Assembly: GCA_947626935.1 (NCBI GenBank)
Contig: CANQUD010000007.1
Location: 1-60,521, forward strand
DNA length: 60,521 nt
DNA from: an uncultured Clostridia bacterium
Lineage (GTDB): Bacteria > Bacillota > Clostridia > Christensenellales > Borkfalkiaceae
Direction of reading: 5' to 3'
Below are positions 3,377 through 60,521 of this stretch, piece after piece. Positions within the stretch are counted from its first letter, which is position 1. Each line of letters begins with the position of its first letter. Position numbers and translations under genes: made by a program. The notes below the pieces were generated by a model that saw nothing but the letters and a program-made list of their open reading frames with translations, had not been told where the DNA came from and did not search any database.

Positions 3377-6300
3377 ATGAAGGAACGTAACATGAGTTTG
3401 GTAAGGAAGATCTTACTTGCCGTACTTGCCGCGCTGCTCTGCGCGGGCGCGTTTTTCGGCGTGCTTGCGATGAACCGTAGCGATGCTGCGGGGATCTTTG
3501 CGCAAGCGACGGAAACCGTGGATCCGCTCGTGCAAGAACGTGCGACCGCGAAGGAAGCTGTCACCACGGCATATACGAAGTGGTCGCAGGGACTCGAGGC
3601 GGGAAGCCGCAGTCTTGCATTCCTCGATGCGGAAAAGACCGCTCTGGAAACGAAGATCGACGAGTCCGTCCGTGTTTCCGAACCGATGGAAGTCGTGCGT
3701 GACGTCGATGCGCGTTTTGTCCTTGCCATTCAAAAGGGTTATGCGCAGGATAGACTTGAAAAGGCTTTCGTGGCGATCCGCGGAACAGATCTTCCCGTCG
3801 ATGCGAAGAAAGACGTTGACCTGTCGGGTGTTGCCAATGCCGACGGAACAGACGCCGCCGAAGGGAAGGAAGCGGAATACGATCTTTATAATTATGTAAA
3901 GACAGCCTTCAAGACGATTGCAGACGCATCCAACATCGAAGGCGTCAATGCCGAACTCAAGACCGCGACCAAAGATCTCTTGGTCGGAACGGTCGGCGTT
4001 CTCCAAGAAGGCGACTCCGCTAACATCTATAATTATCTCCACCTTATCAATAACGGTGTGGACGCGCTCGAAGCCGATCCCGAAAAGGGACTGGAAGATG
4101 TCGAGAGCGGACTTCTCGACGTGCTCTCCGTCGTCGCTCCCAAGGAAGCCGCAGACGTCGCAACCGAGCTGAAGACGAAGAAAGATGACGAGACCGCGAA
4201 GGCTGTTGATGATTATACAAAAGTCTACGCAGCAGTCACGGGCAGCACGGCGATCCCCGAGACCGATAAGACGGTGGAGAACCTTCAAAAAGCTACCGAC
4301 TGCAAGACGCTCAACGAAACGTTGAAGGCAGCTGTCGACGCGCTCTTGAAAGCTCTGGAAGATGCGCATGCAACGAACGGGTCTGAAACCCTCAAGGATC
4401 TCATCTCCGCTGCCCAGACAGCCGTCGGGACGGAATATGCCGCAAAAGAGGAAGGGAAAACCAATGCGGACCGTGTACTCGCTACATATCTCGGATGCGT
4501 GACCAAGGAAGCAGGCGATGACGACACGACCGTGACGGTCACCCTCAAGGCGAAGATCGACGCACAGCTCCTTGTCGACGCCAAGGCGAAGGCAAAGACG
4601 GAGTTCGGCGAAGTTCTGACCGCGCTCGGTCTTTCCGAAAATGCTGACGCGACCAAGATCCAGACCGCAGCGGAGACAGCGATCGACGCTGTCACGCTTA
4701 CGACGATCGAAGCCGCGCTCGAAAGCGTCAACGAGGCTTTGAAAGACAACGTCAAGAAACTCATCCCGCTTCTCAAGCTCAAGGATGAGAAAGGCGCAGT
4801 TCTTGATTCCCAAGCTGTTCAGAATTATCTCGATACGACCGTGATCCTTTCGATCACGAACGCCGATACCACAGGCGCCAATGCGTACTGGGGACTTTCC
4901 GATCTGTCCGAGACGTTGAAGGACGTCGTCACGAAATTGGATGAACTCCGCAATGCCGACCTTACCGCTGTGAAGAACGCGCTCCTTGGCGCGTACAACG
5001 CGATCATGGGCTTGACGGAAGGCGCCGAGGACTACATCACGTCCGAAAACTATGAGACCGCCGCTCCCGCTTACCTCAAGATCGCTTACGCAAAGATCAC
5101 CGAAAAGAACCTGAACGAGGCGCTCGACCAACTCCTTGTCGCGCTCGTCGGGACCGAGGATCCCAAAGCAGAGGGCATGCTCGACGCGTGGAACTACATC
5201 AACGCGAACGATTCTACCGTTGTCCTCGGCTATCTCCCCGCGGCGAAAACAGCCGTTAAGAATGCGATCGAAGAAGCCAAGACCAACGGCGTTGCGCCCG
5301 ACTTCTCCAAGGTCGAAAACGTCAACGGTCTGAAGAAGACGATCGACAAACAGCGTGCAGAGGAAAAGACCGCCACGCTCGAAGCGTACAAGGCTGCTTA
5401 TTCTTACCTCATGGGCGAAGAATACGCCGAAGAGACGCTTGCAGCACTTGAAGGAAAAGTTTACTGCAAAGATCTGACCGACGCGTTGAAGGCAGCGATC
5501 GAAGCGCTCCTTGACGAGGTCGCCAAGGTCGACGGCGTTTCCGTTGAAAACGTTGAGGCGATCACGAATCCCGTAAAGACGAACGAAGCGCTCCTTCTCG
5601 TCTACACGACCGCCAACGGCGGCGCAGAAGGCAAGACTGTTGCTCCTGCCGACAAGGCTAAGCTTGAAACCGCTCTCAAGGCTACGAAGGTCAAAGAGCT
5701 GACTGATTTCCGCAAGTATCAGAATGCTGCGCTTGACGAACTCAAAGCACTCAAAACCGACATCCTCGCTAACGTTCTCGCGGATGAAGTTTCGGCTTTG
5801 ACGACGAAGCTTGATGAAGCGATCAACAGGGCATCGAATACTGAAAATGGCACGATCGAAAAGGCAGTCCTTGGCGACAAAGAGCTTGCCACCGCAGAGG
5901 GCGAGATCGATAAAGCAAAGGGACACGTCATCGCAGAGATGAACAATGCTTCCCGCGTGCTCATCGCCGTCAAGGAATACAATGACAGCTATCAGGAACT
6001 TGTCGGAAGTGACGGGCTTACAGAAGCTCTCAATACATTTAAGACAGAAACATTAAAAGACAAGACGACCGCAACGGACATCAACAATGCTTTGAAGGAA
6101 GCGGTGCAGGCTCTCATTGACAGGCTTGTCAAGACGGCGCCCGAGGCTGAAAAAGATCCTCAAAACGTTGTCACTCTTGCGGAAGAATTGAAAAAACTTG
6201 TTGGCGATGCCGAACTCGGCAAGGGCGCCCACAGCGAGATCGCGGACGTCTCCGCAGTCGCCAACGGGGCGAAGGAAAAGCTTGACTATCGTCGTGCGCT

Positions 6301-9300
6301 CAACGCGGCGATCGCAGAGCTTGAAGCAAAATACACGGCAATCGAAGATGGCGCACAGCTCGGCAAGCGCATGAGCGCCGACGACCTCGCTGCTCTGAAA
6401 GCACAGAAAGACGGAATGGTCAAGGTCATCGATGGGCTTTCCCTTGGACTTGGCGAAAAGACAACGTGGGCGGAAGCTCTTAAGGCGGCTAAGGATGAAC
6501 TCGACAAACTTAAGACGGCAGACCTCTCCGCGCTGGATGTCACCGCTCTGCAGTACGTCGCCAAGCAAGAGTATGTCGACAGCTACAAGAACGCTCTCAA
6601 CCCCGAGACGGTCGACACGACTGCCTTCATGAAATCCCTTGAGGAAAAGAAGACCGCATCCGACATCAACACTACGTTGATCGACACGCTCGATGACGAA
6701 CTTACGGAAGCGCTGAGCGGACATTCCGCAAAGGCGAAAGCGATCATCGATCCTTGCTTGGAAGCTTTGAGAAAACTCAAGGAAGGCGATCTTGCAACGA
6801 ATATCGTTGACGCTTCCGCGACGCTTATGGTCGAAGAGCAGACCCTTCAGAAGGCGATCGAAGGCGTCGTCGTCAGTGAACGCGAAGAGGCAGAAGCAGA
6901 CTACAAGGCATATTATAAGGCGATCAAGGAATTTGCGGAAGATCCCGCTGTTGACGACACGATCAAGAGCTTGAGAAGCGCTGCCGACAACAAGACCCTC
7001 AACAACACCCTGCTTGCAGCCGTCAAGGCGCTCTATGAAGAGAAAGTCAAGGGGCAGCCCGAATCCGTGAAGGCGATCGTGACCGCCGCATTCAAGGCGG
7101 ATGGGGGAGATAAGGGCGACTTCCAAACCCTTGTCGATACGGCAAATACGAGTGGCGTACTTGTCGATTTCACGGCGAAGATCACAGCGATGAATCTTCT
7201 CGTGCAGAAGGGCGTCGCAAAACAAGACTATCTCGATAGCTATAAAGCAATCATCGGCACGGATGCTACTGTTACGGAAGCTCCCGCATCGACCGCTCTT
7301 GAAGCGATCGACGACGCCGCCGACCTTGCGGGCGTCAATACCGCGTTGAAGGAGCAAGTCTGCAATCTTCTCGACACGCTTCTGACGCCGAACAAGGAAT
7401 CCAAAGCGGTCCGCGAAGCTGTCGAGGCTGTCAAAAAAGCCGTAAACGCTGACGGCGTTGCGACCCAGCTCGGCGTCGTTGACCTGTCCGCTTTGCCGCT
7501 CGTTACGGGCATCAAGGCTTCGCTCAAGACCCAGAGGGACGACGAAACGGCAGCCGCGCAGAAGGCATACAAAGATTTCTATGAGGCTCTTACGGGCAAA
7601 ACGCTCGAGGGCAAAAACCCCGTTTCGGGCGACACCTGCTCCGACCTCAATACCTCTTTGAAGGGCGAGATCGACAAGCGCCTTGCAGAGCAGAAATTCG
7701 AGAGCGACTCCATGGAAGTCAAGGCGTACATCCAAAAACTTCAGACCGAAGTTGACAAGCACATCGACGCCGCAGACCTCGAAGATAACCGCGCGGTCGC
7801 TGATTTCACCAAGAATATCGCGATGGACGATGTGACCGAAACGCCCGTCGAGGCAGCCAAGAAAGTTCCCGCAAAGCGTGCCGAAGAAGTAAAGCTGGCG
7901 AAGGATGCGTACCTCGCTGCGTACAAGGATCTCGTCGACAGCACGGCAACGGCGGACACCGAAGCCGTCAAGAAGGCGCTTGACACCATCACGGGCGCTA
8001 CCTGCGGAGACGCAAATGGTCAGTTGAAAGATGCTCTCGACGCGCTCGTTAATAGCCTTGCCGTTGCGGAGAAAGATTCCACGAACGTCAAGACGTACAT
8101 CGGGCAAGTCAAGGCTGCCGTGGACGCTGTGTTCGCCGCAGTGACGGTAGAAGAGAGAAAGGTTCCCACCTTCGACAGCATGACCGTAGGTGAGACGAAA
8201 GGTCAAAAATTCTCGGACATCAAGACCGCTCTTAACGAAAAGAGAAAGAGCGAAGTTGCCGCGGCTTTCGAAGAATACAAGGCAGAATACAAAGCGATCA
8301 CGGGCAACGTCTATGCCGAAACCGACACCGTCGCAAAGGGACATGTCGACGCAATCAATGCAACCGTCTATTCCGCCGATGCGAACGCCGCCCTCAAGAA
8401 CGGCGTCAAGGAACTCCTCGCAAACTATGCAAAGACCCTTCCCGAAGGCGTCACGGCGCAGAGCGAAGAACTCTTGGATGTTGTCGAAAAACAGCAAACA
8501 GCGGTTAACGGCGTCGAAGCGGGCGATAACGGGATCTCCGTTTTGTCTTCTGTCGTTATGACTGCCAAGAACGCGATCAACCTGCAGCTCTACAAAGATC
8601 TGAAGAAGGCTTCCGTTGAAGCGACGTACGGAGCTGTCGACCAAAGCAGCATTTCCGAAGCGAAGCAGAAAGAACTTGAAACGAAGAAGACGGAGACCCT
8701 TGAGGGCATTCAAGCTGTTGAGCTTTCCGTCCTTGAAACAAACAAGGGTGAAATCGACAAACTTGTCAAAGCCTTCGAAGATGCCGTTGAATTGCTCAAG
8801 AAAGTCGGTCCGGCACAGAAAGAATACCTCGACGCATACCTTGCGACCCACGGCACAGCAGCCGATGTCGCAGACGAGACCGTGAAGGGTGTCCTTGATG
8901 ACCTCAACACGAAGTCCACGATCGCAGATCTGAACACCGCTCTTAAGACGGCTGTCACGGCTCTCCTTAGGGGCATGAAGAGCGCGAGCGATTCCGCGGC
9001 AACGACGAAACTCATCGACGATGCGTTGAAAGTCGTCACAGATCTTACCGCTGCGGACGACGCTCTGCTCGACTTCAGCGCGATCGATACCATCTATACT
9101 GAGGTTACCGCGCAGAGAGGTGCAGACGTCACGGCTGCACAGGAAGCCTATAAGACCGTCTACACGGCTCTGACAGGAAAGGTTTGGACGGCAGAGGATG
9201 TGAACCCCGTCACGGGCGTCAACTGCCTTGAGGCGAACACTTCCCTCAAAGAGGCGATCGGGAACCTCGTCGGCAAACTTACGGGCGAAACGACGAGCGA

Positions 9301-42149: not shown

Positions 42150-42220
42150 GTCTGCGTTTTTCGCCTTACGCGTGTGCGCGTGACATACAATCAACGCACG
42201 GCGGACAGGCGGTTGCAGAC
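42150..42220 (+). ncRNA. foldable 5' leader of the second giant gene
   Basis: GTCTGC (42150-42155) can pair with GCAGAC (42215-42220), enclosing TCGCC/GGCG pairing and the hairpin ACGCG-TGTG-CGCGT (42168-42181). GTGCG/CGCAC is a competing partner. Like the leader of the first giant gene it may be regulatory, but the two do not look homologous. Found by eye only. Confidence 0.3.
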
Positions 42221-42260
42221 GAAGAAAACGAAATCTAATCTGTGTCAAGAGGAGAAAAGC

Positions 42261-45200
42261 ATGAGTGCTGAAGGCAAGAAGAAGGACAAGGGCTTTATTG
42301 CGATACTCGTACTGATTATCGTATGCGCTTGCCTCATGGTCGCCGCCGTCACTACGCTCGGCATCGGAATGTCGAACGGCATGGGCGGCACGGAAGAACC
42401 CGGTACGCAGGGTGAACAGACTGCTCCCGCGTCGAAGTGGTACACCGGGAACGGTGCGCCCGCTGCGACTTTGGGCAACAGCGGCGACTTGTATCTCGAC
42501 AAACAGAGCGGGAACGTCTACGAAAAGGGCGGTTCCGGCTGGACTGTCGCCTGCAATCTGAAGGGCGACTCTTCCGAGGTCGTTCCCCACATCGGTGAAA
42601 ACGGCAACTGGTACATCGGTACGACCGATACGGGAGTTGCCGCCAAGGCTCTTACGCCGAGCATCGGTGCGGACGGCTATTGGTACATCGGCGACGAAAA
42701 GACGGACAGCCGCGCTTGGCTCGACGTCAAGATCGAAAACGGCGAATGGTACATAGACGGGAAACCGAGCGGGATCCCCGCTTCCGTCGTTCCCCATATC
42801 GGGCAAGCCGACAACGGCGAGCAAGAGGGGATGTGGTACATCGGCGACCAGCTGACGGGCTTCAGAGCTTCGGGAACGAGTCTCGAGATCTCCGATGACG
42901 GCTACTGGGTCGTTGACGGCGAAAAGACTTCTACGCATGCCGAAGGCAGCAAGCTCGCGATCACCGACGACGGCTACTGGGTCATCGACGGTGTCAAGAC
43001 CGACTATACCTGCGCACCTTACATGAAGGACGGCAAGTGGTACGTCGGCTCGAAAGAGATCGGCGACGCAGCTCCCCATATCGGCGCGAACGGCAACTGG
43101 TATGTCGGCGAGAAGGATACGGGCTATTCCGCATCCGGTGCGATGTGGCACAGCGGCGAGGGCGCTCCCTCGACGGCTGCGATCCCCGCTGCACATGAGG
43201 GCGATTTCTATTTCGATACCGAAAGCGGCGACGTCTACCGTTTCTATAACGGTGCATGGGCGAAGTTCGTCGATCTTCGTTATGACCTCAACCCCGAGAC
43301 CAACGAGTGGGAACTCAACGGCGAAGGCACGGGCGTCTATGCGACGGCATGGTCGAGCGGCGAAGGCGATCCTACAGGGAAACTTGCGGGTCACGTCGGC
43401 GATTTCTACCTTGACGCGGTAAGCGGTATCATATATAAATATGTATCTGCCACGGAAGGTTGGGAAAAACTCCTTTCCGTCAAGCAGTGGTCGACGGGGA
43501 ACGGCGCACCCGATGATGCGTTCGGTTTCTTGGGCGACATGTATGTTGACCTCGATGACGGTCAGCTCTATCAGTATAACGGCACGGCTTGGGAAGCTGT
43601 CGACGGAATTATTCTCCGCGGCACCAAGCTCTTCACGGGCAGCGGAGCACCTGCTGCCGATCTCGAAGGCGCAAAACTCGGCGACTTCTACTTTGACCTC
43701 AAGGACGGCGTTATCTACGAACTCAAGAAGGTCGAAGGCGAAGTGAAGTGGGTCGCTGCGAACCTTGACGATCCTCTCGCGGGGACCAGATGGCTCAGCG
43801 GCACGGTCGATCCTACCGATGACCTCGATGCAAAGGATTACGACGTCTACTTCAACACCGAGAGCATGACTCTTTGGCAGCTCACGCCCAAGGCTGAGGG
43901 CGAAGGTTCCGAGTGGAAGAGACTCGGCGTTCTTTCCAGCCAGCGCGGCACCAAGTGGTTCTACGGCTCCTTCACGCCCGAACTTCCGCAGGACGAAGCG
44001 GGCTTCGAAAAGCTCACCGAAGGCTCTATCGATAGTGACTTCTATCTCCAGACATTCGATTCCTTCAGCGGTATGAAGGGCTTCAGAATGTATGTGAAGG
44101 AAAAGGGAGCGTGGACTCTCCTCGTCGACATGGCGACGGCAGAGAGATACACGGAATTCAACATTCCTTCTTACGACTCGCTCCGCTCGTTCCGCAACAG
44201 CGTCAACGGCGTCTATGGCGAAGCGAATGCTTACAGCGACACGATCGTCCACGTTATCGCGGACGTTGTGATCCCCGCAGACGAAAGCGCCACCTTCGGC
44301 GTTGTCGGCGACGAAGAGAACGTATTCAGCGGCATCCTCGACGGTCAGAAGGGTGCTGAAGGCAAATACACGATCAGCGGCATCACGGGCACGCTCTTCG
44401 GCACGCTCAAGGATGCTACGATCCAAAATGTAGACTTTATTGGTTCGATCAACGCGAAAGCGCTCACGACCGATACAAAAGACAATGCTGTCTCTCTCCT
44501 CACAGGCACATTTGGTCTTGCACAAAAGTTCGAAGGAACTGTTATGATCAAGAACGTTACCCTTACGCTCACATTGGTCGACGACGAGGGCGCCGCTCTC
44601 GGCACGGCGACCATCGTTTGGGGCAACGAAGAAGATACGCCGAGCGTCACCGTCACGATCACGGGCAATAAGGCGGAGACTGCGTCCATTGCGGCGACTG
44701 CGACCACACTTGCCGACTATAAGCTTCAGCTCGAAGATCAGATCCTTGAACTCGGCGCAGCAAGCTTCACGTTCAACAACATCGCACTCACGGGCAACAG
44801 CGTGTTTGTTGTCGACAATGCGAAGGCATTCGCTCTTACGGGCAGCTATATCAGCGCAAAGCCTGAGAATGCGAAGTATCACAACGCTCCCGTGTTCGGC
44901 GATTACGGCAAGGAACTCAAGACGGCGGAAGAGGGCGGATACGACCTCGAGATCTCGGGCAACACGTTCGCGACCGATCGTGCCGTCTACATGTACAACA
45001 AGGTGACGAGCGTCCTCGTCAGGGAAAACGTGTTCGGCACGACCGAAAAGCCGATGGGCGACGAATGGGCTGTCAAGTTCATGGCGATCGGCGCAGATTC
45101 GACCTTCAAGGTCAGCGGCAACGTCATCAATGGCGCGACCTCGACGGCGGAAGGCGAAGACAACGATACGTTCTATGCCTTTGATTTCTATGCAGACGAA

Positions 45201-48200
45201 GAGAACAAGGCGAATGCATACAGCGTCGAGTTCGAAAGCAACACCCTCACCGTTGCGGACAATGCGACAGCGAAGGGCAATTACGGTCTTGTCAAGGTCG
45301 AGGCGCAAGACAACAACGGCGGCAAGGGCAAGATCTATCTCCTCGGCGATACGAACTCCGTCAGCGGAAAAGACATGTTCGACGCTGTTGCCTACACGCT
45401 CTATCACAAGGGCGCAGGCGCCGTTCCCGATGATGCAGATCCCGAAAATGCCTTCTCGTTCATCGCGTTCAACGCGGCGCTCGATGAGGAAGAAAAGCTT
45501 ACGCAGGGCTATGTCTACATCGGCAGCGAATTCGGCAAGACGCACACGTACAAAGCTACAGATCTTTCCGCAGAAGTTTCGAAGAAAGACGATGTTTGGA
45601 TCATCGACCTTGGTATCACATACCAGTATAAATCTGGCGAAGTCGAAGACCCTGCGGGCAAATTAGAGCCTGTCTATTCCTACATCAACGATCCGCTCGG
45701 CTTCGTACAGCATGTCGCCGACTATACAGATCATTACTATATAAATAATGTAATGGGTCTCGTGTACTTCCGTGACTCTGTCAAAAACAACACGATCGCT
45801 GCTGGCGGATATGAGGGAATGACCGTTGTTCTGACGGAAGATCTCAAGACGGAAGATGTTGTCGAAGTATACGATTTCGCCAAGAATGAGTTCTGCTTCT
45901 GGAATGAAGCGCCGATCGGTACGGAAAGCGCACCCTTCAAGGGTACGTTCGACGGCTCCGATTTGAAGATTCTCAACATTAGCGGCAATCCGTTCTTCGG
46001 CTATGTTGACGGTGCAACGATCAAGAATCTCAAGCTCGAGAATGTCAAAGTTTTCGGCAATCAGAATGTCGGCGGTCTCGTCTCCTATGTCAAGGGCAAT
46101 ACGACGATCCTCGACGTTGCGGTTTCGGGTGAACTTACTTTGGCGCCGAATGCCGGCAACGCATGGGTATATTCTCGTTCTATCGGCGGTCTCGTCGGCG
46201 GCGTCGATGCGACTGCGAACCTTACGGTCGGCGGTGTCTACTTCAGCGGTACACTCAACAACTTGTATGAAGAGATGGCTCAAGACGGGACGGAACCCGG
46301 CGCGAAGCTCATCCACAATAAGTTCAACTATCTTGTTTACAACTATGGTCTTGTCGGATCCTCCGGTTCCGAAACCACAAAAGATACTTGGACTGGCGAG
46401 CATAATATCTATGCCGCTGCAAAAGTTACCGTCACCACGGCCGGAGTCAAGGGTACTTGGGAACCCGGCAAGCCCGATACGCCGTTCACGGCGATCGTGG
46501 ATGCGACGGTCGTTGCAACAAAACTTAAGCTCAACGCAACATTTGAGAGCGGAGAAGTGACGAATGACATGAGCGGCGTTGTCGTCTCTGTCTATGAAGA
46601 TGAGGGAACGCCCGCAAGCGAAGCTCTGACGGGACTCTACAATGTCGCAGAACTCGTCAACGGCGGTATCTCCTTCGAGAATCAGATCGTTCTTCTTACT
46701 TCGAATGTCAGCATTTTGAATACGACAGGAAACGAATGGACGCCGATCGGTACGGACACCGCACCCTTCAAGGGCACCTTCCTCGGCGCTCCCGATGCGG
46801 CAGAGGGGGCAACGGCTCCCGCTCCTTACGCCATTCGCGGCGTTCTCGGTTCGCTGTTCGGTTACCTTCAGGGCTCTGTCAAGAATCTTACGATTTCGGT
46901 TGCAGTGAAAGAGGCTTCGAACTATGGTCTTGTCGCTGCCAAAGCGGCGGCAAATGGCGACAGCCCTGCAACGATTGACAATGTCCTTGTCACGGGTTCG
47001 CTTTTTGAAACTGACCTTACAAAACTTGCGGGTAAGCAGGTCAAAGACTATGTGGCAGCTCCGTTCGGCTTCTACGAGGCGGATGAACTGGAAGCCGTCG
47101 TCGTCACGGATTCGACTGCTTCGATCGGCTTAGATTATTCCAACGTCGATCTCCTTGTGAAAGTCGAGAAAGACAGCTCTGTATATGTTCGTGTATTGGG
47201 TAGCGGAACCGAACCCAACATTACCGACGAAGCGCTCGTTCTCAACGGCTTCACGAAGGGCGGAAAGAATCTTGCGGCTGAATACAACTTCACAACTCTG
47301 AAATTTGAGGGCAACAGCTCGGTCGACATCGCCAAGGCGACATCCTTCACGATGAAAGACTGCGTCGTGAACGTCACGCCTACCGACGACGACGTGAACA
47401 CCCGCGAGGCATTCATCATCAGTGCTTCGCACCTTGCCGCCGACAAGTGGGAGCTTGAGAGCGGAAAAGTCCATACGCTGTCTCTCGACATCGAAGACAA
47501 TAAGATCGTTGTCAAGAAAGCAGAGGCCGAAACGAAAGATCCCATCGCTCTGTTCATTCTTCAGAACAAGATCGCGGACGGCTCCAAGATCAGCGGCAAC
47601 ACGATCGGTGACGACACGAACCGCTTCGAGTTCGTCGGCATCAAGCTCGGCGAGTTTGAGGACGGCGCTAAGATCACCCTCGAGAACAACACCGTCTACG
47701 GAAAAGTTTCCGCAGAGGGCAAGTGGTTCGGCGGCTTCGACTTCTTGGAGGACGGCGACCACGAACCGAAGTTCAGCGCATACCTCAAGAGAAACACGGT
47801 CGATGTCAAAGCGGCAGAGGGGATCGAACTCCTTCCCGGCGACGGCACGGCTGGTTCCAAGACCAACTACTCCTTCGTTCAGGTCGAAGGCAACGGCGGC
47901 GCGACCCACGGTATGGTCTACGTCCACACCGACAACACGCTTATCGTCGACGGAGAAGAGGGACGCTCCCTCAAGTACGAGGATGTCGCGAACTGGATCA
48001 CGGCGGATGGCAAGATCGGCAACGCCGACTACATCGGCTACAACGTCGAGTGGAATGACGACCTCGAGATCACGAAGGGCGACTTCGTATTCGGCTATGA
48101 CGACTTCTGGTACTACGGGAACCAGAAGAAGGGCGATGTTGCTCTGTTCGACGCGGCGGTCAAGGATCTTGCAGCGGCTGTTGCGGAAGGTTCCGAAGAG

Positions 48201-51200
48201 AACATCCACGTTGTCATCGGCAACTCGTTCGGCAGAAAGCTCTCCGAACTTACGGTTCCCGAAGGCGGCGACAAGAGCGCCAAATACAACACCTACTACA
48301 TGTTCGACAAGACGGGTCTTGAAACGTTTGTCACCCTTACCAACGAAGGGTACAGCTTCGCGGGCAAGACTGTCATGTTCGACGACGGATTCAACAAAGA
48401 CGGCAGCTACGTACTCGATCTCTCGGACTATGGCGACGAGTGGATCCCGATCGGTAATTCGGATCATGCTTTCGACGGTACCTTCGACGGCAGCTACGGC
48501 AGCGGAGCCGAAGCAGCCAACTGGCAGATCACGAATCTCACCTACAACGGCACGAAAGAGAAGGCGGAGAACTTCGGCTTCTTCGGCTACACGCGTGGCG
48601 GTGCAGCAAATGCTGCCCTCAAGAATCTCGACCTTCACGAATTCACCTACAATATCCCCGACGGACGTACCGACAACGCAACGACGGGTGTCCTCGTCGG
48701 CAATGCGGAAAAGACGACGATCGAAAACGTCCACGTCGCGAACAGCACTCTGACGAACTTCCTCAAGAACGTCGGTGCGGTTGCGGGTCACATCAAGGAA
48801 GTTACGATGACGAAAGTCACCGTCCAGAACGTCAAGATCGATTCCGAGAACGTCAATGCGGGTGCGGTCGTCGGCGTCGCAGAAAAGAGCACGTTCGAAG
48901 AAATTCGTGTCGGCTGCTCGGTTGCAGACGGAAAGGTTACGCCTTCTACTGACAAGGTGACCGTGAGCGGCATGTACTCCGTCGGCGGCGTGGTCGGTCT
49001 TGCCAAGGACGGCATCACCGCCAAGGATGTTTGGTCGGCGGCTGATCTCCAGCTTGACATGGTCTCCGATCAGAAGTTTGCAACGCTCATCGGCGGTATC
49101 GTCGGCGGCGTGAACGACTCGGCGACCTCGACATTCACCTTCAAGGATACGCACTTCATCGGTACGCTCAACCGTCTGGCATTCCTTACGACCTTCACCG
49201 CAAACTATGCGAACTACGGTCTCGTCGGCGGCGAAACGGATGGCTCGAACAACGTCACGCTCAACATCACCGAATCGAGCTTCCACTCCGAACACGCCGA
49301 AGGCTTCAAGCAGGAGACCGATTGGAACGAAACGGGCGAAGTCACGTCGCAGTACAAGGTCAGCACCCTGAACGGTCTCGAGTACTTCCGCGATCAAGTC
49401 AATCTCGGCAATCCTTACACGGGTGAAACCGTTCACCTCATCAAGGATATCTACCTTGAGAAGAAAGAATGGACGCCGATCGGCAACGAGACGTACGCAT
49501 TCGAAGGTATCTTCACGGGCTACTACGACAAGGCTGATAAGGAAGAGACGGATGCGCCTAAAGCGAACACGAACGAGGGCGCGATCGGCGAAACCGATTA
49601 CACTTGGACGAAGGATGCCTTCACGATCTCCGACCTCAATGTCAAACAGCACAAGCAGCACGTCAACTACGGCTGCGAAGGCGGCGACTACGCAGGTCTC
49701 TTCGGACGGATCGCAGACGGCGCTAAGGTCGAAAAACTCAACATCGACGGCGCTCATGTCACCGGTCACGAGAAAGTCGGTGTCATCGCAGGCGGCGTCG
49801 GAACAACCAATGACACCTCGCGGCAGGGCACGATCGAGAACGTCACGGTCTACAATGCAGAGGTCCACGGACATCACTGGGTCGGCGGTCTCGTCGGTTA
49901 TGGCGCTTGCGACGTCAAGGGTTCGCAGGTCATCGACCTCGTTGCGACTGCAACGCCCGAACTTGTCACGGTCGAAAGCAACCCGAAGTTCGACAACGGC
50001 GACAAGCTCGGCGGTCTCGTCGGTTACGTCGGCTATGGCGTCGCACAGACCTTTGATCACAACCTCGTCGCAGACGCTACGCTCACCGCGTATCGCGATG
50101 TCGGCGGTCTCATCGGTATGGATAACAGCACGGGCGACACTACTGCGAGCACGTTCACGAACAACACCGTTCAGAACGTCACCGTCAACGTCCAGAGGAG
50201 TGGCTTCAACTCCAAGGCGACGGCGCCCGAAGGCTGGTGGACCCCGACCGATTGGACAGAATTCTGCAACTACACGCAGGACTACACCTATGTCGGCACC
50301 TACCAGCGCAATGCAGAGTGGATGGTCGGCCGTTACAGCTACAGCGACGAGACGGCAACGACGAAGGGCGTCAACGTCGTCGGCGGCACAACGAACAACA
50401 CCAACGTCGGTACGGCGATCAACCGTAACGAGAGCGAAGATGCCAAGGGTCTCGTCTATGACAACAACGCTTGGCGCATCACGACCGTTGAAGGTCTCAA
50501 CACCCTCCGTGAACTCCTTGCAAAGACCGAGGCAGGCACCCACGACGGGCAGGACTACACGGTGGGCTTCGAAGGTCAGAAGGTCGTCCTCGACGGCGAC
50601 ATCGATCTGAGCGTTGCGGCAACCGTTGCGCTCGACGCAGAAGCGGCGGCTTGGACCCCGATCACCAACTTCAAGGGCACCCTTGACGGACGCGGACACG
50701 TCCTCAAGAACCTCAACGTTTCGGGCAATGGCGACATCGGCTTCTTCTCGTCGCTTGATTCGACGGCAACGGTTTCGAACATCATCTTCGAGAATGCGAC
50801 CGTAAACGGCACGAACACGACGTTGAGCGGCAGCGCAGTCAATGCGAATGCGGGCGTCCTCGCAGGTACGATCAACGGCGCGACGATCAGCGGCATCACT
50901 GTCAAGAGCAGCACGATCACGTCGGAAGCGGTCGCGGGCGCTCTTGCAGGCAAATTGAGCGGCACGGTCAATGTCACGGGTATCACCGTCGACGGCGCAA
51001 CCGTGACGGGCGGCACCGCAGAAGGCGGCACGGCTGCTGCACTTGCAACGGTCGAAGCGGGCGCAACGGGCACCGTGGAGAACTTCAACTTCACAGGTAC
51101 TCTTACGGCAAAGACCACCGTTTATCTTGCCAAGGTCGAAGGCTTGACCTACAAGAACTGCACCGTCAGCGACACCGCAATGACGTCTGCAGAGGGCATG

Positions 51201-54200
51201 TTCTACGGCACGTATGCGAATGCAGACGGTTCGACCGTCCTCGACAGCGCATACTTCATCCTCGGCAAGGACGATACGCTCACCGCGCTCAAGATCCTCC
51301 AGAACTTTGCAGCGTATGTGAACGAAGGGCATGACTTCGACAAAGAAACAGTCTATCTCCTCGAGAATGTCACGCTTGGCGCAACGGATACGTGGACCCC
51401 GATCGGGGCACAGAACGCTGTGTTCAACGGCACGTTCGACGGCAACGGCAACACGATCAAGGGACTCAAGACGACCCTGTTCGGTCACGTCGGCGCGAAG
51501 TTTGTCCTCAACATGCTGCATGTTGAAGTCTCCAATGCTTCTACTGCAACCGCGCTCTACGGCATCGCAGATGTCGCGGCAGAGGGTGCAAAGGTCACGA
51601 ATTCCGACATCACCAACACGAACGATGCGTACAACACGAACGATGCGTATGAGATGAAGTTCGTTTGGGATGACAAGGGTGTCGTCACGGCTGCTACCAC
51701 CTTCGATCATAAGGTCAAGACAGTTGACGGACTTAAGTATCTTGCAACCGTCGTCAACAGCGGCGTCAGCTTCGAAGGCGCTACGGTTCAACTCACGGCG
51801 GACGTGAGTCTCACAGGAGTTGAAAATTGGTCGCCGATCGGTACCGACGAAAAGACTCCTTTCAAGGGCGTCTTCGACGGTAAGAGCCATAAGATCAGTG
51901 ATCTCCTCTTCAAGGACTTCACAAAGACCAACGCGGGTCTGTTCGGCTACGTGCAGGGCGGCGAGATCAAGGACTTGACGCTTGACGGCTTCACCGATGT
52001 CGTCTCCTCCGAGAACGCAGGCGCTCTTGCAGGCTATCTCGACGGAACGAAGCTCTCGAATATCACCGTTACCTGCACAGACATCAGCTCCAACGACGCG
52101 ATCCTGCAGGCAGCGAATGCGGGCGCAGTCGTCGGTGTCGCAAAGGGTGTCAAAGCGACGGGAATCACCGTTCATGGCAACGGGACGCTTGAACTTCAGG
52201 TCTCGGGCAGCACGGTCGGTGCGTTCGCGGGCAAGGTCGAAGGAACTACGACCGTTGCGGGTACCTTCCAGGTCATCCTCAAGGGCAAATATGACGAAAC
52301 CTACGGCGGACTTGTCGGCGCTCTCGCGGAAGGCGCTAGGCTGAACCACGACGACGCGACAGTCACCCTTGTCGAGTACATCGCAGATGAGGTCGACCTC
52401 AAGGCATTCCGCACGAGCGTCAAAGAAGGCAACAATAAGAATTACGAAGGCTGGCTTGTTCTCCTCAAAGAAGGCACCTATGAATTAGGTACGATCGATC
52501 CTCTCGGCGGCACGTTCAAGGGAACCTTCCAACCCGCAGGCTATATTGTGGGGGGGGAGAATAACAGCAACGTCACCATCAAGTACACGATGGCGAAGGG
52601 CGAAGCAGCAGTCGCCGACTACACGGCGGGCTTCTTCGCAGAACTCAACGGTGCGACCGTTCAGGGCGTCTCCTTTGAGGCTACCATCACCGAAGCAGAT
52701 GCAAAGGGTGTCGGCGTTGTCGCCGCAAACTCTGTCAACTCCACGATCACGAACGTAACGGTCAAAGCGACCGTTACGGGCGGGGTCTATGTCGGCGCCG
52801 TTGTCGGGCATGCAACGTCCACCACTTTGACGAACAACACCGTCACGGGTACGCTCAAGGTTCAGGACAACAAGCTCGGCGGACTTGTCGGCTACATCGA
52901 CGGCGGCTCGACCGTTTCCCAGAACACGCTCGGCACCGCGGAAGCGCCCGTTGTCTTGACCGCTCTTAAAAACAATGCGGCAGAGGGCGCTGAAGAGAAC
53001 GGCTACGGCATGGTCGGCGGTCTCATCGGCGGTGGCGGTGGAACAGGCTCCACGACCGTCAGCGAGAATACCCTCTATGTCACGATCGACGTGACCGAAG
53101 GGAATGCTGCATATCAGAAGTACACGGGCGCTCTTATCGGCAACCCCGGCAATATGACTTTCGACAAGAACACGGGTGCCGCAACGATCAAGGTTTCCTT
53201 CGGTACGGAATGGACCGAAAAGGGACTTATCGGCTTCACGAGCACGGAAGGCATCTATACCCTTGGGACAGAGGCGAACGCGAACACCGTGAAGATCGAA
53301 TGGATCGAACCCGTTGCTAACGTGGACGGACTTAAGGCGCTTGCCACGAAAGTGAACAATGGCACCGATTCCTATGAGGGAAAGACGCTGCTTCTCACGG
53401 ACGACCTCGACCTTGAAGAGAAGGAATGGATGCCGATCGGAAACGCCGCTCATAGCTTCATGGGCACCTTTGACGGCGGCAATCATACGATTTCCAACAT
53501 CAAGGTTTCGAGCGGTTTGAAGTACCTCGGACTGTTCGGTATGGTCGGTAATGTCAATTCCGATGTGACACCCGAGATCAAGAACTTGAAACTCGGCGGA
53601 TACAATGCTATCATGTGCGTGGAAAAAGATTCCGCTATGCGGAATGACTCCGGTCTCCTTGCCGGCTATGCCGCAAAGACCACGTTCACGAACATCAGCA
53701 CGGCGGAGAACACGTCCATAGGTGTTACAGGGTTCTTCGGCAACTTCGAAACGTATTTCCTGTACGGTTGCTCGATCGGCGGACTTGTCGGCACATCGCA
53801 GACAAACACCTACAACAATATCCAGTTCAACCCGATCATGGGGAGCGTGAATGGCGCAGCGGGTATCTCCGTCGGCGGTCTCATCGGTCTTTCCATGGGT
53901 GATACGCTGAAGGATGTTACCGTATCCAACACGCACGTGCTCGGTGCGCTCAATGTCGGCGGTGTGATCGGCACGGCTTACCGTGACATCAAACTTGATA
54001 ACGTCAAGGTTGTAAACGGTCACGTTGAGCTTACCGGAGTTGCGACATGGGGTCAAACGGATCAGGAGCATACTTTGGTCGGCGGTCTCATCGGTGCGGC
54101 GTATTCGGGAACGATTACGATCGAAAAGAGCGGATTTACGGGCAAGATCGAACGGGATCTTTACATCGAAACAGCCCTTGTAAATAACGGGCTTGTCGGC

Positions 54201-54371
54201 GGTGTCGCGATCATGTATTCGGGTGCCGTTGCTCCGAAGCTTACCGTCACCGATACTTCTGTTGATTTCACTGGAACCACCTATAAGTCGGTAGACGGTA
54301 AAGATGTGCCTGTAAACGTTGTCGTGAAGGGCGCTTACGATGCGGAAGGTACGTTTGTTCCCGCCGAATAA
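42261..54371 (+). CDS. giant membrane-anchored surface protein (4,036 aa) with WYxGxGAP and GLUG-type beta-helix repeats
   Basis: The start is MSAEGKKKDKGF, with AGAGGAGA upstream; an in-frame ATG at 42174 adds a non-conserved, basic lead. Residues 1-10 are cytoplasmic and 11-35 form one membrane helix without a clear cleavage or lipobox site, so it is probably a signal anchor. Residues about 55-620 hold WY-x-G-x-GAP..GD-x-YLD modules and short PHIGENGNWYIG..TG repeats. From about 630 to the end there are ten large units, each opening with V-x-GL-x-x-F/L, a strand of the type VYLLENVTL, WTPIG, then F-x-GTFDG, and continuing with GLFGY, VGGLVG and I-x-NV-x-V steps, as in the GLUG motif (beta-helix adhesins). 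There is no C-terminal anchor, no LPxTG and almost no cysteine. A large adhesin or self-assembling fibre is likely. It is a single gene with promoter and terminator. Confidence 0.85.
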   Translation: MSAEGKKKDKGFIAILVLIIVCACLMVAAVTTLGIGMSNGMGGTEEPGTQGEQTAPASKWYTGNGAPAATLGNSGDLYLDKQSGNVYEKGGSGWTVACNLKGDSSEVVPHIGENGNWYIGTTDTGVAAKALTPSIGADGYWYIGDEKTDSRAWLDVKIENGEWYIDGKPSGIPASVVPHIGQADNGEQEGMWYIGDQLTGFRASGTSLEISDDGYWVVDGEKTSTHAEGSKLAITDDGYWVIDGVKTDYTCAPYMKDGKWYVGSKEIGDAAPHIGANGNWYVGEKDTGYSASGAMWHSGEGAPSTAAIPAAHEGDFYFDTESGDVYRFYNGAWAKFVDLRYDLNPETNEWELNGEGTGVYATAWSSGEGDPTGKLAGHVGDFYLDAVSGIIYKYVSATEGWEKLLSVKQWSTGNGAPDDAFGFLGDMYVDLDDGQLYQYNGTAWEAVDGIILRGTKLFTGSGAPAADLEGAKLGDFYFDLKDGVIYELKKVEGEVKWVAANLDDPLAGTRWLSGTVDPTDDLDAKDYDVYFNTESMTLWQLTPKAEGEGSEWKRLGVLSSQRGTKWFYGSFTPELPQDEAGFEKLTEGSIDSDFYLQTFDSFSGMKGFRMYVKEKGAWTLLVDMATAERYTEFNIPSYDSLRSFRNSVNGVYGEANAYSDTIVHVIADVVIPADESATFGVVGDEENVFSGILDGQKGAEGKYTISGITGTLFGTLKDATIQNVDFIGSINAKALTTDTKDNAVSLLTGTFGLAQKFEGTVMIKNVTLTLTLVDDEGAALGTATIVWGNEEDTPSVTVTITGNKAETASIAATATTLADYKLQLEDQILELGAASFTFNNIALTGNSVFVVDNAKAFALTGSYISAKPENAKYHNAPVFGDYGKELKTAEEGGYDLEISGNTFATDRAVYMYNKVTSVLVRENVFGTTEKPMGDEWAVKFMAIGADSTFKVSGNVINGATSTAEGEDNDTFYAFDFYADEENKANAYSVEFESNTLTVADNATAKGNYGLVKVEAQDNNGGKGKIYLLGDTNSVSGKDMFDAVAYTLYHKGAGAVPDDADPENAFSFIAFNAALDEEEKLTQGYVYIGSEFGKTHTYKATDLSAEVSKKDDVWIIDLGITYQYKSGEVEDPAGKLEPVYSYINDPLGFVQHVADYTDHYYINNVMGLVYFRDSVKNNTIAAGGYEGMTVVLTEDLKTEDVVEVYDFAKNEFCFWNEAPIGTESAPFKGTFDGSDLKILNISGNPFFGYVDGATIKNLKLENVKVFGNQNVGGLVSYVKGNTTILDVAVSGELTLAPNAGNAWVYSRSIGGLVGGVDATANLTVGGVYFSGTLNNLYEEMAQDGTEPGAKLIHNKFNYLVYNYGLVGSSGSETTKDTWTGEHNIYAAAKVTVTTAGVKGTWEPGKPDTPFTAIVDATVVATKLKLNATFESGEVTNDMSGVVVSVYEDEGTPASEALTGLYNVAELVNGGISFENQIVLLTSNVSILNTTGNEWTPIGTDTAPFKGTFLGAPDAAEGATAPAPYAIRGVLGSLFGYLQGSVKNLTISVAVKEASNYGLVAAKAAANGDSPATIDNVLVTGSLFETDLTKLAGKQVKDYVAAPFGFYEADELEAVVVTDSTASIGLDYSNVDLLVKVEKDSSVYVRVLGSGTEPNITDEALVLNGFTKGGKNLAAEYNFTTLKFEGNSSVDIAKATSFTMKDCVVNVTPTDDDVNTREAFIISASHLAADKWELESGKVHTLSLDIEDNKIVVKKAEAETKDPIALFILQNKIADGSKISGNTIGDDTNRFEFVGIKLGEFEDGAKITLENNTVYGKVSAEGKWFGGFDFLEDGDHEPKFSAYLKRNTVDVKAAEGIELLPGDGTAGSKTNYSFVQVEGNGGATHGMVYVHTDNTLIVDGEEGRSLKYEDVANWITADGKIGNADYIGYNVEWNDDLEITKGDFVFGYDDFWYYGNQKKGDVALFDAAVKDLAAAVAEGSEENIHVVIGNSFGRKLSELTVPEGGDKSAKYNTYYMFDKTGLETFVTLTNEGYSFAGKTVMFDDGFNKDGSYVLDLSDYGDEWIPIGNSDHAFDGTFDGSYGSGAEAANWQITNLTYNGTKEKAENFGFFGYTRGGAANAALKNLDLHEFTYNIPDGRTDNATTGVLVGNAEKTTIENVHVANSTLTNFLKNVGAVAGHIKEVTMTKVTVQNVKIDSENVNAGAVVGVAEKSTFEEIRVGCSVADGKVTPSTDKVTVSGMYSVGGVVGLAKDGITAKDVWSAADLQLDMVSDQKFATLIGGIVGGVNDSATSTFTFKDTHFIGTLNRLAFLTTFTANYANYGLVGGETDGSNNVTLNITESSFHSEHAEGFKQETDWNETGEVTSQYKVSTLNGLEYFRDQVNLGNPYTGETVHLIKDIYLEKKEWTPIGNETYAFEGIFTGYYDKADKEETDAPKANTNEGAIGETDYTWTKDAFTISDLNVKQHKQHVNYGCEGGDYAGLFGRIADGAKVEKLNIDGAHVTGHEKVGVIAGGVGTTNDTSRQGTIENVTVYNAEVHGHHWVGGLVGYGACDVKGSQVIDLVATATPELVTVESNPKFDNGDKLGGLVGYVGYGVAQTFDHNLVADATLTAYRDVGGLIGMDNSTGDTTASTFTNNTVQNVTVNVQRSGFNSKATAPEGWWTPTDWTEFCNYTQDYTYVGTYQRNAEWMVGRYSYSDETATTKGVNVVGGTTNNTNVGTAINRNESEDAKGLVYDNNAWRITTVEGLNTLRELLAKTEAGTHDGQDYTVGFEGQKVVLDGDIDLSVAATVALDAEAAAWTPITNFKGTLDGRGHVLKNLNVSGNGDIGFFSSLDSTATVSNIIFENATVNGTNTTLSGSAVNANAGVLAGTINGATISGITVKSSTITSEAVAGALAGKLSGTVNVTGITVDGATVTGGTAEGGTAAALATVEAGATGTVENFNFTGTLTAKTTVYLAKVEGLTYKNCTVSDTAMTSAEGMFYGTYANADGSTVLDSAYFILGKDDTLTALKILQNFAAYVNEGHDFDKETVYLLENVTLGATDTWTPIGAQNAVFNGTFDGNGNTIKGLKTTLFGHVGAKFVLNMLHVEVSNASTATALYGIADVAAEGAKVTNSDITNTNDAYNTNDAYEMKFVWDDKGVVTAATTFDHKVKTVDGLKYLATVVNSGVSFEGATVQLTADVSLTGVENWSPIGTDEKTPFKGVFDGKSHKISDLLFKDFTKTNAGLFGYVQGGEIKDLTLDGFTDVVSSENAGALAGYLDGTKLSNITVTCTDISSNDAILQAANAGAVVGVAKGVKATGITVHGNGTLELQVSGSTVGAFAGKVEGTTTVAGTFQVILKGKYDETYGGLVGALAEGARLNHDDATVTLVEYIADEVDLKAFRTSVKEGNNKNYEGWLVLLKEGTYELGTIDPLGGTFKGTFQPAGYIVGGENNSNVTIKYTMAKGEAAVADYTAGFFAELNGATVQGVSFEATITEADAKGVGVVAANSVNSTITNVTVKATVTGGVYVGAVVGHATSTTLTNNTVTGTLKVQDNKLGGLVGYIDGGSTVSQNTLGTAEAPVVLTALKNNAAEGAEENGYGMVGGLIGGGGGTGSTTVSENTLYVTIDVTEGNAAYQKYTGALIGNPGNMTFDKNTGAATIKVSFGTEWTEKGLIGFTSTEGIYTLGTEANANTVKIEWIEPVANVDGLKALATKVNNGTDSYEGKTLLLTDDLDLEEKEWMPIGNAAHSFMGTFDGGNHTISNIKVSSGLKYLGLFGMVGNVNSDVTPEIKNLKLGGYNAIMCVEKDSAMRNDSGLLAGYAAKTTFTNISTAENTSIGVTGFFGNFETYFLYGCSIGGLVGTSQTNTYNNIQFNPIMGSVNGAAGISVGGLIGLSMGDTLKDVTVSNTHVLGALNVGGVIGTAYRDIKLDNVKVVNGHVELTGVATWGQTDQEHTLVGGLIGAAYSGTITIEKSGFTGKIERDLYIETALVNNGLVGGVAIMYSGAVAPKLTVTDTSVDFTGTTYKSVDGKDVPVNVVVKGAYDAEGTFVPAE

Positions 54372-58702: not shown

Positions 58703-59710
58703 ATGGACCAACCGCTTATTCTCGGAATCGAATCCTCTTGCGACGAAACGGCTGCGGCAGTCATCCGCGGTCGTATTTTGCTGTCCGACGAGATCATCTC
58801 TTCCGCATCGGTGCAGGCGAAATTCGGCGGCGTCGTCCCCGAAATCGCCTCGCGTGCGCACAGCGATGCCGTCGATGAGGTCGTTACGCGTGCGCTCAAT
58901 GCCGCAAATGTCCGAAAAGAGGAGCTTGACGCCGTCGCCGTCACCTACGGGGCGGGGCTGCTCGGCGCTCTTCTCGTGGGACTTTCCTTCGCAAAGGGGC
59001 TTGCGTACGGACTGCAGATCCCTCTCATCGGCGTCGATCACATCCGCGGACATCTTGCCGCAGGGTATCTGGAGAACGAAGCGCTCACGCCGCCCTTCAT
59101 CACCCTGCTCGCGAGCGGGGGACATACGGCGATCCTCTTTACCAAGACGGAGACAGAGTTCGAAGTTTTGGGCGGCACGCTCGACGATGCGGCGGGGGAA
59201 GCGTTTGACAAGGTCGCCCGCGTTTTGGGGCTGCCTTACCCGGGCGGACCTCAAGTGGAAAAGCTCGCACGGGAGGGAAAAAATGTCATTCCCATGCCCA
59301 AGATGCTCAAGGGGATGGGCGGGTACGATTTTTCATACAGCGGACTCAAGACGCACATCATCAACTATGTTCACACCAAGGAGCAGAAAGGGGAAGCATG
59401 GTCAAGGGCGGACGTCGCCGCTTCCTTCCAGTCTGCCGCGCTCGACATCCTTGCAGAAAAGACGGTCGAAGCCGCAAAAGAGCGTCACATCGGCACGGTG
59501 ACGGCGGGCGGAGGCGTCATCGCAAACGGATATTTGCGCGAGAAATTGCAACATGCCTGCGAAAAAGCGGGGTTAAAGCTCATCTTGCCCGCAAAGAAAC
59601 ACTGTACCGACAACGCCGCCATGATTGCCGCCGAGGGACTCATCCAGTATCGGGCGGGGAATTTTTCTCCGCTCTCCCTCAACGCTTGCGCTTCCATTCC
59701 GCTGCGGTGA
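58703..59710 (+). CDS. tsaD: tRNA N6-adenosine threonylcarbamoyltransferase TsaD
   Basis: Transfers threonylcarbamoyl to A37 of tRNAs that read ANN codons, with TsaB and TsaE as partners (neither gene is here). The 335-residue ASKHA-fold protein has GIESSCDETAAAV at 8-20, the metal-binding histidines 113 and 117 in GVDHIRGHLAAG, and further LLASGGHTAIL, YPGGPQVEKLA, YDFSYSGLKT and HCTDNAAMIAAEG. Length is typical. It lies 22 bases after prfB with no strong ribosome site, and ends at a terminator. Confidence 0.97.
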   Translation: MDQPLILGIESSCDETAAAVIRGRILLSDEIISSASVQAKFGGVVPEIASRAHSDAVDEVVTRALNAANVRKEELDAVAVTYGAGLLGALLVGLSFAKGLAYGLQIPLIGVDHIRGHLAAGYLENEALTPPFITLLASGGHTAILFTKTETEFEVLGGTLDDAAGEAFDKVARVLGLPYPGGPQVEKLAREGKNVIPMPKMLKGMGGYDFSYSGLKTHIINYVHTKEQKGEAWSRADVAASFQSAALDILAEKTVEAAKERHIGTVTAGGGVIANGYLREKLQHACEKAGLKLILPAKKHCTDNAAMIAAEGLIQYRAGNFSPLSLNACASIPLR

Positions 59711-59770: not shown

Positions 59771-60406
59771 ATGGGGAATCAAACCATCTATTTCAAAAAG
59801 CAGCCGCGGATCATTTCAACGAGCACGATCGCGGGTCCCAAGGAATGCGAGGGCGTCATCGGCAGATATGTGGAGACGGCGCTCTCCGACGACATGTACG
59901 GCGAAAGCACGTACGAGAAAGCCGAATGCAAGATGCTTTCAAAAGTCATTGACGGCGCCATTTCCAATGCGGGTCTTGACCGTGAGGAAGTGGATATGAT
60001 CGTCTCGGGCGACCTTCTCAACCAGATCATCTCGGCGAGCTTTGCCGCCCGCGACTTCTCCGTGCCCTTCCTCGGCGTGTACGGCGCATGTTCGACGATG
60101 GCGGAATCCCTCGCCGTGGCGGCTGCCTTTGTCAACGGCGGGCTGTGCAAGCGTGTCGTTGCGGCGACGGGGAGTCATTTCGCCTCTGCGGAACGCCAAT
60201 ACCGCTATCCCTTGGAACTTGGCTGTACCCGTCCGCCCCAATCGCAATGGACGGTCACCGCGGCAGGCGCATCCCTCGTTTCCGACCGCGGCGACGGCGT
60301 CAGGATCACGGGCGCAACGCTCGGGAAGGTGGTCGATTTCGGTATCACGGACGTCAACAACATGGGCGCCGCCATGGCGCCCAACAGAGATATATTAGAC
60401 CCATAG
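59771..60406 (+). pseudogene. spoVAD: stage V sporulation protein AD, truncated at its 3' end
   Basis: SpoVAD binds dipicolinic acid for its import into the forespore. The reading MGNQTIYFKKQPRI matches the conserved start. Family segments follow in order: GPKECEGVIGRYVETALSDDMYGESTYEKAE, GDLLNQIISASFAARDFSVPFLGVYGACST, SSHF-like GSHFASAERQYRYPLELG and QWTVTAAGASLVSDRGDGV. It keeps the fold up to NNMGAAMAP and then stops after NRDILDP, giving 211 residues where the family has about 338. The remaining third is missing, and the following sequence is unlike a coding region. No Shine-Dalgarno precedes the ATG, and spoVAC and spoVAE, its usual neighbours, are not upstream. It may be interrupted by an inserted element. 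Confidence 0.82.
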
Positions 60407-60426
60407 AGAGATGTCTATGGGCTTTT
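60400..60426 (+). terminator. hairpin with T run at the end of truncated spoVAD
   Basis: CCCATAGA-6-TCTATGGG followed by CTTTT. It overlaps the new stop codon. It may be an intrinsic terminator or a structured end of an inserted element. Confidence 0.5.
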
Positions 60427-60521
60427 AACAACAAAAAATCACGAAAAAAGGAGGTCAAATCAGTAGACATCTATGCAAAAGGGCGTGAATTTTATTCACG
60501 CCCGATTTTACTATTAGGTGT
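60427..60521. mobile_element. possible left edge of an inserted element, cut by window end
   Basis: AT-rich, non-coding sequence after the broken spoVAD. It contains a strong AAAGGAGG ribosome-site-like run (60446-60453), TAGACATCT (60464-60472) inverted relative to AGATGTCTA at 60409-60417, and a perfect 9-bp hairpin GGGCGTGAA-5-TTCACGCCC (60481-60503). Subterminal hairpins and such layout are seen at the ends of IS200/IS605-type elements, but a recombinase gene is not in view. A 14-codon reading (60473-60517) inside the hairpin region is probably not a gene. Confidence 0.35.

Follow-up and report, generated by a model that had tools for sequence, protein, structure and literature searches.

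A truncated spoVAD at the end of the window

The right end of the window (the whole stretch of DNA analysed here, 60,521 nucleotides) holds a spoVAD gene that breaks off shortly before the contig does, downstream of an open reading frame that we take to be tsaD. The SpoVAD frame opens with an ATG at 59771 and reads as native protein to codon 204, after which seven foreign residues (NRDILDP) lead into a stop at 60404-60406. The features of this region are listed below; G068 is a relative and C11 a second contig of the source genome, G000.

58703..59710, plus strand: presumed tsaD, directly upstream of spoVAD (open reading frame call)
59771..60382, plus strand: 5' part of spoVAD, codons 1-204, ending in NNMGAAMAP (PF07451 positions 1-203, E 3.9e-84)
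60374..60382, plus strand: attL core region ATGGCGCCC (codons 202-204); the right break on C11 reads ATGGCCCCC, and the exact shared core is ATGGC
60383..60521, plus strand: left end of the element, 139 bp to the contig end, sharing 99.2% identity with the G068 left end over 121 bp
60391..60396, plus strand: TATATT, the -10 half of a predicted junction promoter (TTGACA on C11; joined spacer 17 bp)
60410..60471, plus strand: candidate leader RNA, with a helix 60410-60417/60464-60471 around the conserved TTTTAACA...AAAA...GGAGG (sequence conserved; 21 of 300 shuffles give as good a helix in G000)
60481..60503, plus strand: GGGCGTGAATTTTATTCACGCCC hairpin followed by GATTTT, terminator-like by sequence and folding

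A profile search of the source assembly placed the N-terminal part of SpoVAD at C7:59774-60382 and a C-terminal part (PF07451 positions 200-329, E 7e-54) at C11:51975-52361 on the minus strand, with C11 ending 199 bp past the match. These two halves are the only PF07451 matches in the assembly (93.7% complete), where no intact spoVAD was found, and both breaks (C7, C11) sit close to contig ends. The C-terminal third that a preliminary description of the window had found missing is present, in register, on C11. The hairpins which that description placed after the break proved real as well, the 138 bp past the break folding as single-stranded DNA 4.3 SD better than shuffles.

Gene order across the break in the source genome is tsaD, spoVAD, spoVAE and a lipoprotein gene. 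The uninterrupted copy in G051 agrees, with one extra gene, and the lipoproteins 3' of spoVAE in the two genomes are 63% identical. tsaD also neighbours spoVAD in G101 and G090 and lies one gene away from it in G051. Elsewhere in the window, positions 42174-54371 form a single open frame of 4065 residues that is repetitive in appearance.

Insertion site and element ends in relatives

Within the genus, which one named record calls Gallimonas, 93 of 103 genomes had a SpoVAD match by PF07451. An N-terminal part ending at HMM position 203-206 occurred in 13 of the 103 (G000, G004, G012, G059, G064, G068, G076, G079, G081, G090, G094, G100 and G101), so the interruption at NNMGAAMAP, as first described, is not a matter of chance. 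Eight of these 13 also had a C-terminal part starting at 196-202 (G000, G004, G012, G059, G064, G068, G076 and G100, the last with two). No matching C-part was found in G079, G081, G090 and G101, or in G094, where an intact copy is present instead. Six more genomes matched partially, at positions other than these (G023, G053, G058, G077, G084, G093). In G059, both halves lie on contig C8 in the same orientation, 36,302 bp apart from core to core, which refutes decay or misassembly as an explanation for the family. SpoIVB, whole or as an N-part, was present in all 13 genomes with a cut spoVAD.

At class level, SpoVAD was matched in 225 of 293 genomes (at least 90% complete; three from this genus). 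At least one genome outside the genus, G363 of another family, has the same cut, seven genomes with unusual scores or two matches having been examined; its ends show the same arrangement of promoter boxes as the spoVAD elements of the genus.

An additional, uninterrupted spoVAD occurs in a few genomes or elements (L145, G051, G094). At L145:4801-6351, two recombinase genes and a complete spoVAD stand before TTGACA and a second spoVAD C-third; the complete gene is apparently a rescue copy that the element brings along. At L114 (G094:C8, about 5900-7500, minus strand), a truncated recombinase gene ends about 60 bp upstream of intact spoVAD, and the cut N-half lies on another G094 contig. G051 has two intact spoVAD-spoVAE copies (L125, L126), one of them beside polysaccharide-type genes. 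The type B left end at L115 (G100:C13, 1100-1250) is placed immediately 3' of spoVAE, not within spoVAD, in a genome with two spoVAD C-thirds.

The insertion site is spoVAD codons 202-204, ATG GCC CCC of NNMGAAMAP, and all 13 left ends of the genus align there. Short repeats at both breaks had been suggested, and relatives do share cores of 4-8 bp across the two breaks; in the source genome the core is ATGGC. Joining the flanks, with break strings chosen by hand and the core located by script, restored the full SpoVAD frame in 9/9 pairs (eight genus genomes and G363). The joined open frames have 333-401 residues, or 326-330 when counted from the conserved start, which was located in eight of them, and a normal C-terminus; solved SpoVAD structures are 3LM6 and 3LMA. 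An exact site with a short identical core and no loss of gene bases is what an integrative element of the large serine recombinase (LSR) kind leaves, and a sporulation gene cut with both halves retained in frame is a mark of intervening elements. The preliminary reading of the window's right end, as the point where a site-specific mobile element begins within a sporulation gene, was thereby borne out.

The two ends carry complementary halves of a promoter. On the left, a -10-like hexamer starts exactly 17 bp after the core A in 13/13 cases (TATAAT in nine, TATATT in two, TAAAAT in two); on the right, all nine ends, from eight genomes, have a -35-like box (TTGACA in eight, TTGACG in one) 9-10 bp before the reference point. 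Joined, the ends read TTGAC[AG]-17-TATA[AT]T in eight of nine pairs, with a spacer of 18 bp in G004. In the integrated state, the hexamer opposite each box scores 0-3 of 6, and the source genome's own attL hexamer at the -35 position matches at 1/6. Boxes on opposite ends that come to lie 16-18 bp apart on joining, as in Tn4451-type elements, were found in all nine spoVAD pairs and, by reading, in three spoIVB elements. This arrangement, new to these elements, strongly predicts from sequence that the excised circle would form a promoter.

Searches for the joined form itself were negative. An attP pattern that misses TATATT and TAAAAT ends gave 16 matches in 14 of the 103 genus genomes at 1-2 mismatches, none of which read as a junction (all but G101:C14 were read), and 0 matches in viral contigs. 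The element ends of the source genome matched elsewhere in that genome at E 0.16 or weaker, with no second copy of the left end; they gave 0 matches in viral contigs, and neither the right end in plasmids nor the left end in phages found a match.

A candidate leader follows the -10 box: TTTTAACA or TTCAACA, an A-rich stretch and GGAGG, often with a hairpin next that is terminator-like by eye. Type B elements have an open reading frame of about 100 residues in place of the hairpin, and its product in a type B left end matched no Pfam or NCBIfam family. Scored against 300 shuffles each, the leader helix was equalled by 1-11% of shuffles in nine of 17 leaders, by 14-17% in four and by 24-72% in four (three further leaders were unscorable and left out), and in 14 of the 17 the 5' part pairs as well or better with the 3' part of some other leader, so that a helix is at most weakly suggested. 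A pattern of -10 box and leader, built from known left ends and applied blind to the target, hit 12 places in 10 of the 103 genus genomes (reversed control 0), a count of this architecture rather than of all elements. Seven of the places are in spoVAD, four in spoIVB and one just 3' of spoVAE (G100:C13). Across the class, the pattern gave 27 matches in 26 of 391 genomes (the source genome included) against 9 in 7 for the reversed control; it is specific in the genus and not in the class. Rfam gave 0 matches at gathering level, and by E-value two miRNA matches far below the cut-offs.

Recombinases, other targets and transfer

A recombinase had been expected between the halves, and relatives supplied it. 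LSRs lie on the spoVAD element stretches of G059, G076, G064 and G100 (two copies) and as a tandem pair in G004; the source genome, whose element body is absent from the assembly, has no LSR at E 1e-80 or better, a level reached in 31 of the 103 genus genomes. Both G004 proteins have Resolvase, Recombinase and Zn-ribbon domains, and the LSRs of G059, G076, G064, G100 and G083, the last with a tandem pair in its spoIVB element, align with them. No LSR was seen in the stretches read of G012 and G101, nor in 13.8 kb of the cut copy of G094. Two further spoIVB elements (L193, L211) have, by eye, three tandem recombinase genes each. A DUF6870-like protein is encoded upstream of the LSR in 13 of 14 loci by eye (two confirmed by Pfam), and Pfam found DUF6870 in 23 of 99 open reading frames taken from upstream of LSRs; we regard it as a candidate directionality factor. 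Our literature search found no paper on DUF6870.

Elements of the same kind cut spoIVB near its 3' end. Both parts were found in G083, G016 and G058, and N-parts ending at that same position in G064 and G099; in G064, spoVAD and spoIVB are both interrupted. All five spoIVB left ends have TATAAT, and five of the six right ends shown have TTGACA, which is absent in G071. By reading, the spacing is 17 bp in G083, G058 and G016, though the G016 core is not identical. Three of the six right ends (G044, G071, G095) belong to a further spoIVB 3' end in a genome with an intact copy. At these loci (L238, L239, L240/L241), spoIVB looks whole and its last ~20 codons occur a second time, ~1.5 kb downstream in G044, ~0.8 kb downstream in G071 and on a separate contig in G095; insertion there may keep spoIVB whole.

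We also surveyed the best 80 GTDB-contig relatives, ranked by likeness to the recombinases at spoVAD and spoIVB. A sporulation-gene fragment lies right of the LSR in 20 of them, a share that the ranking biases upward, and the other 60 were not assigned to one. By tblastn over whole loci, a spoVAD fragment was found in eight (L137, L138, L139, L142, L143, L144, L145, L149; up to 6 kb off, with L142 and L143 looking like duplicates) and a spoIVB fragment in two. Within ~1.6 kb there were fragments of a CwlD-type amidase (four), a PdaB-type deacetylase (three), SpoVD (two) and SpoVAC (one). Curated cut-offs are not reached by the amidase, deacetylase and SpoVD fragments, which can happen with partial genes, and the CwlD name is weak for L198 and L204. 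The loci beside these four kinds of fragment are L182, L190, L198, L204, L188, L199, L200, L150, L151 and L187, and the CwlD-type fragments start at a GHGG-like motif. Among the families listed for 85 of 127 downstream open reading frames were SpoVAD (six), CwlD (four) and PdaB (three); as a control, the 25 families listed per library for 99 of 155 upstream frames of the same LSRs included one SpoVD and one SpoVG.

TTGACA stands at the break in L137, L142, L144, L145, L149, L193 and L211. It is missing at the break of L138 and L139 and not evident in the sequence shown of L182, L190, L204 and L150; L187 reads TTGACC. This distribution marks the promoter feature as proper to the spoVAD and spoIVB elements and not to all 20. 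Related LSRs also adjoin collagen-like frames (L159, L160, L167, L183, L194), perhaps of spore-surface proteins, with a BclA C-terminal domain clear in L160 only.

The ends of the elements are far more alike than the genes that they cut. Between G000 and G068, the left ends are 99.2% and the right ends 97.3% identical, against 80.3% for the N-half and 74.4% for the C-half of spoVAD; G079 and G081 share 79.7% in the host gene and 100% over 65 bp of the element end, and G101 and G090 87.4% and 99.2%, respectively. The same element has therefore entered different species recently, and the contrast in G000/G068 (ends 97-99%, spoVAD halves 74-80%) is that of horizontal mobility. Recent transfer may also explain why contigs end at equal element positions in G000 and G068.

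For type B elements, dS of the LSR, N-half and C-half was 0.39/0.44/0.50 in G059/G076 and 0.28/0.44/0.43 in G064/G100 (0.18 with the other G100 LSR copy). The C-half dN/dS was 0.05 in G059/G076 and 0.008 in G064/G100b; if insertion predates the type B splits, the cut-off C-third stayed under selection. Because LSR dS falls below host dS (0.43-0.50) and the cargo differs, co-divergence is not proven, and each host may instead have acquired its type B element independently. Cargo includes polysaccharide-type genes in G059, G076, G100, G064 and G094 (by eye; Pfam backs four G100 genes), a VirB4/TraG-like ATPase and coupling protein in G004, and AbiE and Fic-like genes in G101. By eye, conjugation or mobilisation genes were not seen in the G059 element, nor were phage structural genes recognised in the element stretches read or TnpA/TnpB in the relatives' elements, where LSRs occur. 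Between the LSR and the right end of the G059 element (L047, L048), ~16 kb resemble, by eye, maltodextrin utilisation genes.

Proposed excision, rival explanations and the spore cycle

From these sequences, we hold it highly probable that an integrative element of the LSR kind sits at spoVAD codons 202-204 and is excised as a circle, restoring spoVAD and forming the circle promoter. Support for a site-specific LSR mobile element in spoVAD is good, even though the LSRs come from relatives' elements and none from the source genome; excision and its timing we infer. The LSR, with a directionality factor for which DUF6870 is the candidate, would cut the element out as a circle and rejoin the spoVAD halves in frame. 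Closure of the circle would bring the right-end TTGACA to 17 bp from the left-end TATAAT (TATATT in the source genome), creating a promoter that exists on the circle only and would read the leader into the left-end genes, reporting the excised state. Less surely, spoVAD may stay functional through excision in some cells of the population or in all.

This last step is where the chief rival departs from an explanation that it otherwise overlaps. An ordinary ICE, IME or island might have as its safe attB a conserved gene that is required under some conditions only, leaving its host without SpoVAD until the element moves, with no regulated excision. We consider this quite possible. The recent transfers between species fit it and account, without excision, for the intact C-halves in G000/G068, G079/G081 and G101/G090; so do the conjugation-type genes of G004, the defence genes of G101 and the polysaccharide genes of type B. 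The spare spoVAD inside the L145 element suggests that some insertions go unrelieved by excision, and related LSRs adjoin many other genes, as the 60 unassigned loci among the best 80 illustrate. Strong purifying selection on the C-halves of two pairs and the variety of sporulation genes among the targets speak against it.

It is improbable that the element is a defective prophage of the skin type that leaves in the mother cell. Such a prophage would share the serine recombinase, the cut sporulation gene and the short core, and two of 80 LSR contigs from IMG/VR have a SpoVAD C-third right of the LSR; yet phage structural genes were not recognised by eye in the stretches read, and in C. difficile both spoVAD and spoIVB belong to the forespore. 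The IS200/IS605-like or other short insertion offered in the preliminary description draws on the hairpins at the break and has become very unlikely, given the 36.3 kb element of G059, the serine recombinases in relatives' elements, the exact site in 13/13 genomes, C-parts open from the core on and nine of nine joins in frame. The same open C-parts and in-frame joins leave hardly any room for a decayed gene, which had also been considered, or for a misassembly: both breaks in the source genome do lie near contig ends, but the C-part is in register, gene order is kept across the gap and the same codon is cut in 13 genomes.

Our preferred reading, an LSR element that leaves as a circle, invites comparison with known systems. 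According to excerpts of PMC4191935, PMC5595907 and PMC10747680, skin (sigK), vfbin (spoVFB), vrin (spoVR), SPbeta (spsM) and yin (yabG) likewise cut a sporulation gene that a site-specific recombinase can restore, and a circular form of yin was seen in culture (PMC10747680). The present elements differ in their new targets, in the lack of phage genes recognisable by eye, in a promoter divided between the ends and in an excision that is so far predicted only. The gin element in gerE of B. cereus ATCC10987, presented in part of PMC5595907 as a non-phage element with three serine recombinases, resembles the spoIVB elements L193 and L211 with their three recombinase genes, tandem by eye; here the gene and core are different, and the G004 element has conjugation genes. 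Promoters of the circular state have been described, and Tn4451/Tn4453 with TnpX, large resolvase elements too, make one in their circular form, by the title of Lyras and Rood 2000 as cited in PMC13023037. Their promoter serves the recombinase gene, whereas the one predicted here from sequence would read the leader and left-end genes, and in the elements that show an LSR its gene is found in the middle or nearer the right end. Islands carry spoVA genes as cargo, not as a target, in the excerpt of PMC6907783. In titles and the opening lines of abstracts, we found no report of an intervening element in spoVAD or of spoVAD as an insertion target, and our searches found no paper on sporulation in Gallimonas.

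The cell type of the targets sets these elements apart. The known elements with a stated cell type interrupt genes (sigK, spsM, spoVFB, spoVR, gerE) that are expressed in the mother cell, as parts of PMC4191935 and PMC5595907 state, the former naming the hosts of vfbin and vrin among such genes; there, loss of the element costs nothing, since that cell dies. In C. difficile, spoVAC, spoVAD, spoVAE and spoIVB CD1213 belong to the sigma-G regulon, going by the excerpt of PMC3789822. SpoIVB acts as a forespore signal in that of PMC3789829. By analogy with the C. difficile regulon, excision of the skin kind, confined to the mother cell, would not alone restore spoVAD and spoIVB where they are needed. 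Because its target, by the C. difficile regulon, is not a mother-cell gene, we do not class the spoVAD element as an intervening element, only as working like one.

Elements in forespore genes pose the question of whether the future spore loses the element, keeps it as a circle or sporulates without the gene. Metagenome reads already available would allow counts of the junctions attB, attP, attL and attR, and activity of an attP promoter would signal that the element had been excised. Capsule-type, conjugation and defence genes are carried by elements that have settled in genes required for spores only. A bolder proposal, which we regard as rather unlikely, is that a DUF6870-associated LSR clade has specialised in sporulation genes, forespore (germ-line) genes among them, and that its elements must leave the chromosome of the future spore before SpoVAD or SpoIVB can be made, with the circle promoter and leader on, and re-enter the same codon after germination. 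If this were true, the element would be tied to the spore cycle through the germ line, the opposite of the throw-away excision of skin in the mother cell.
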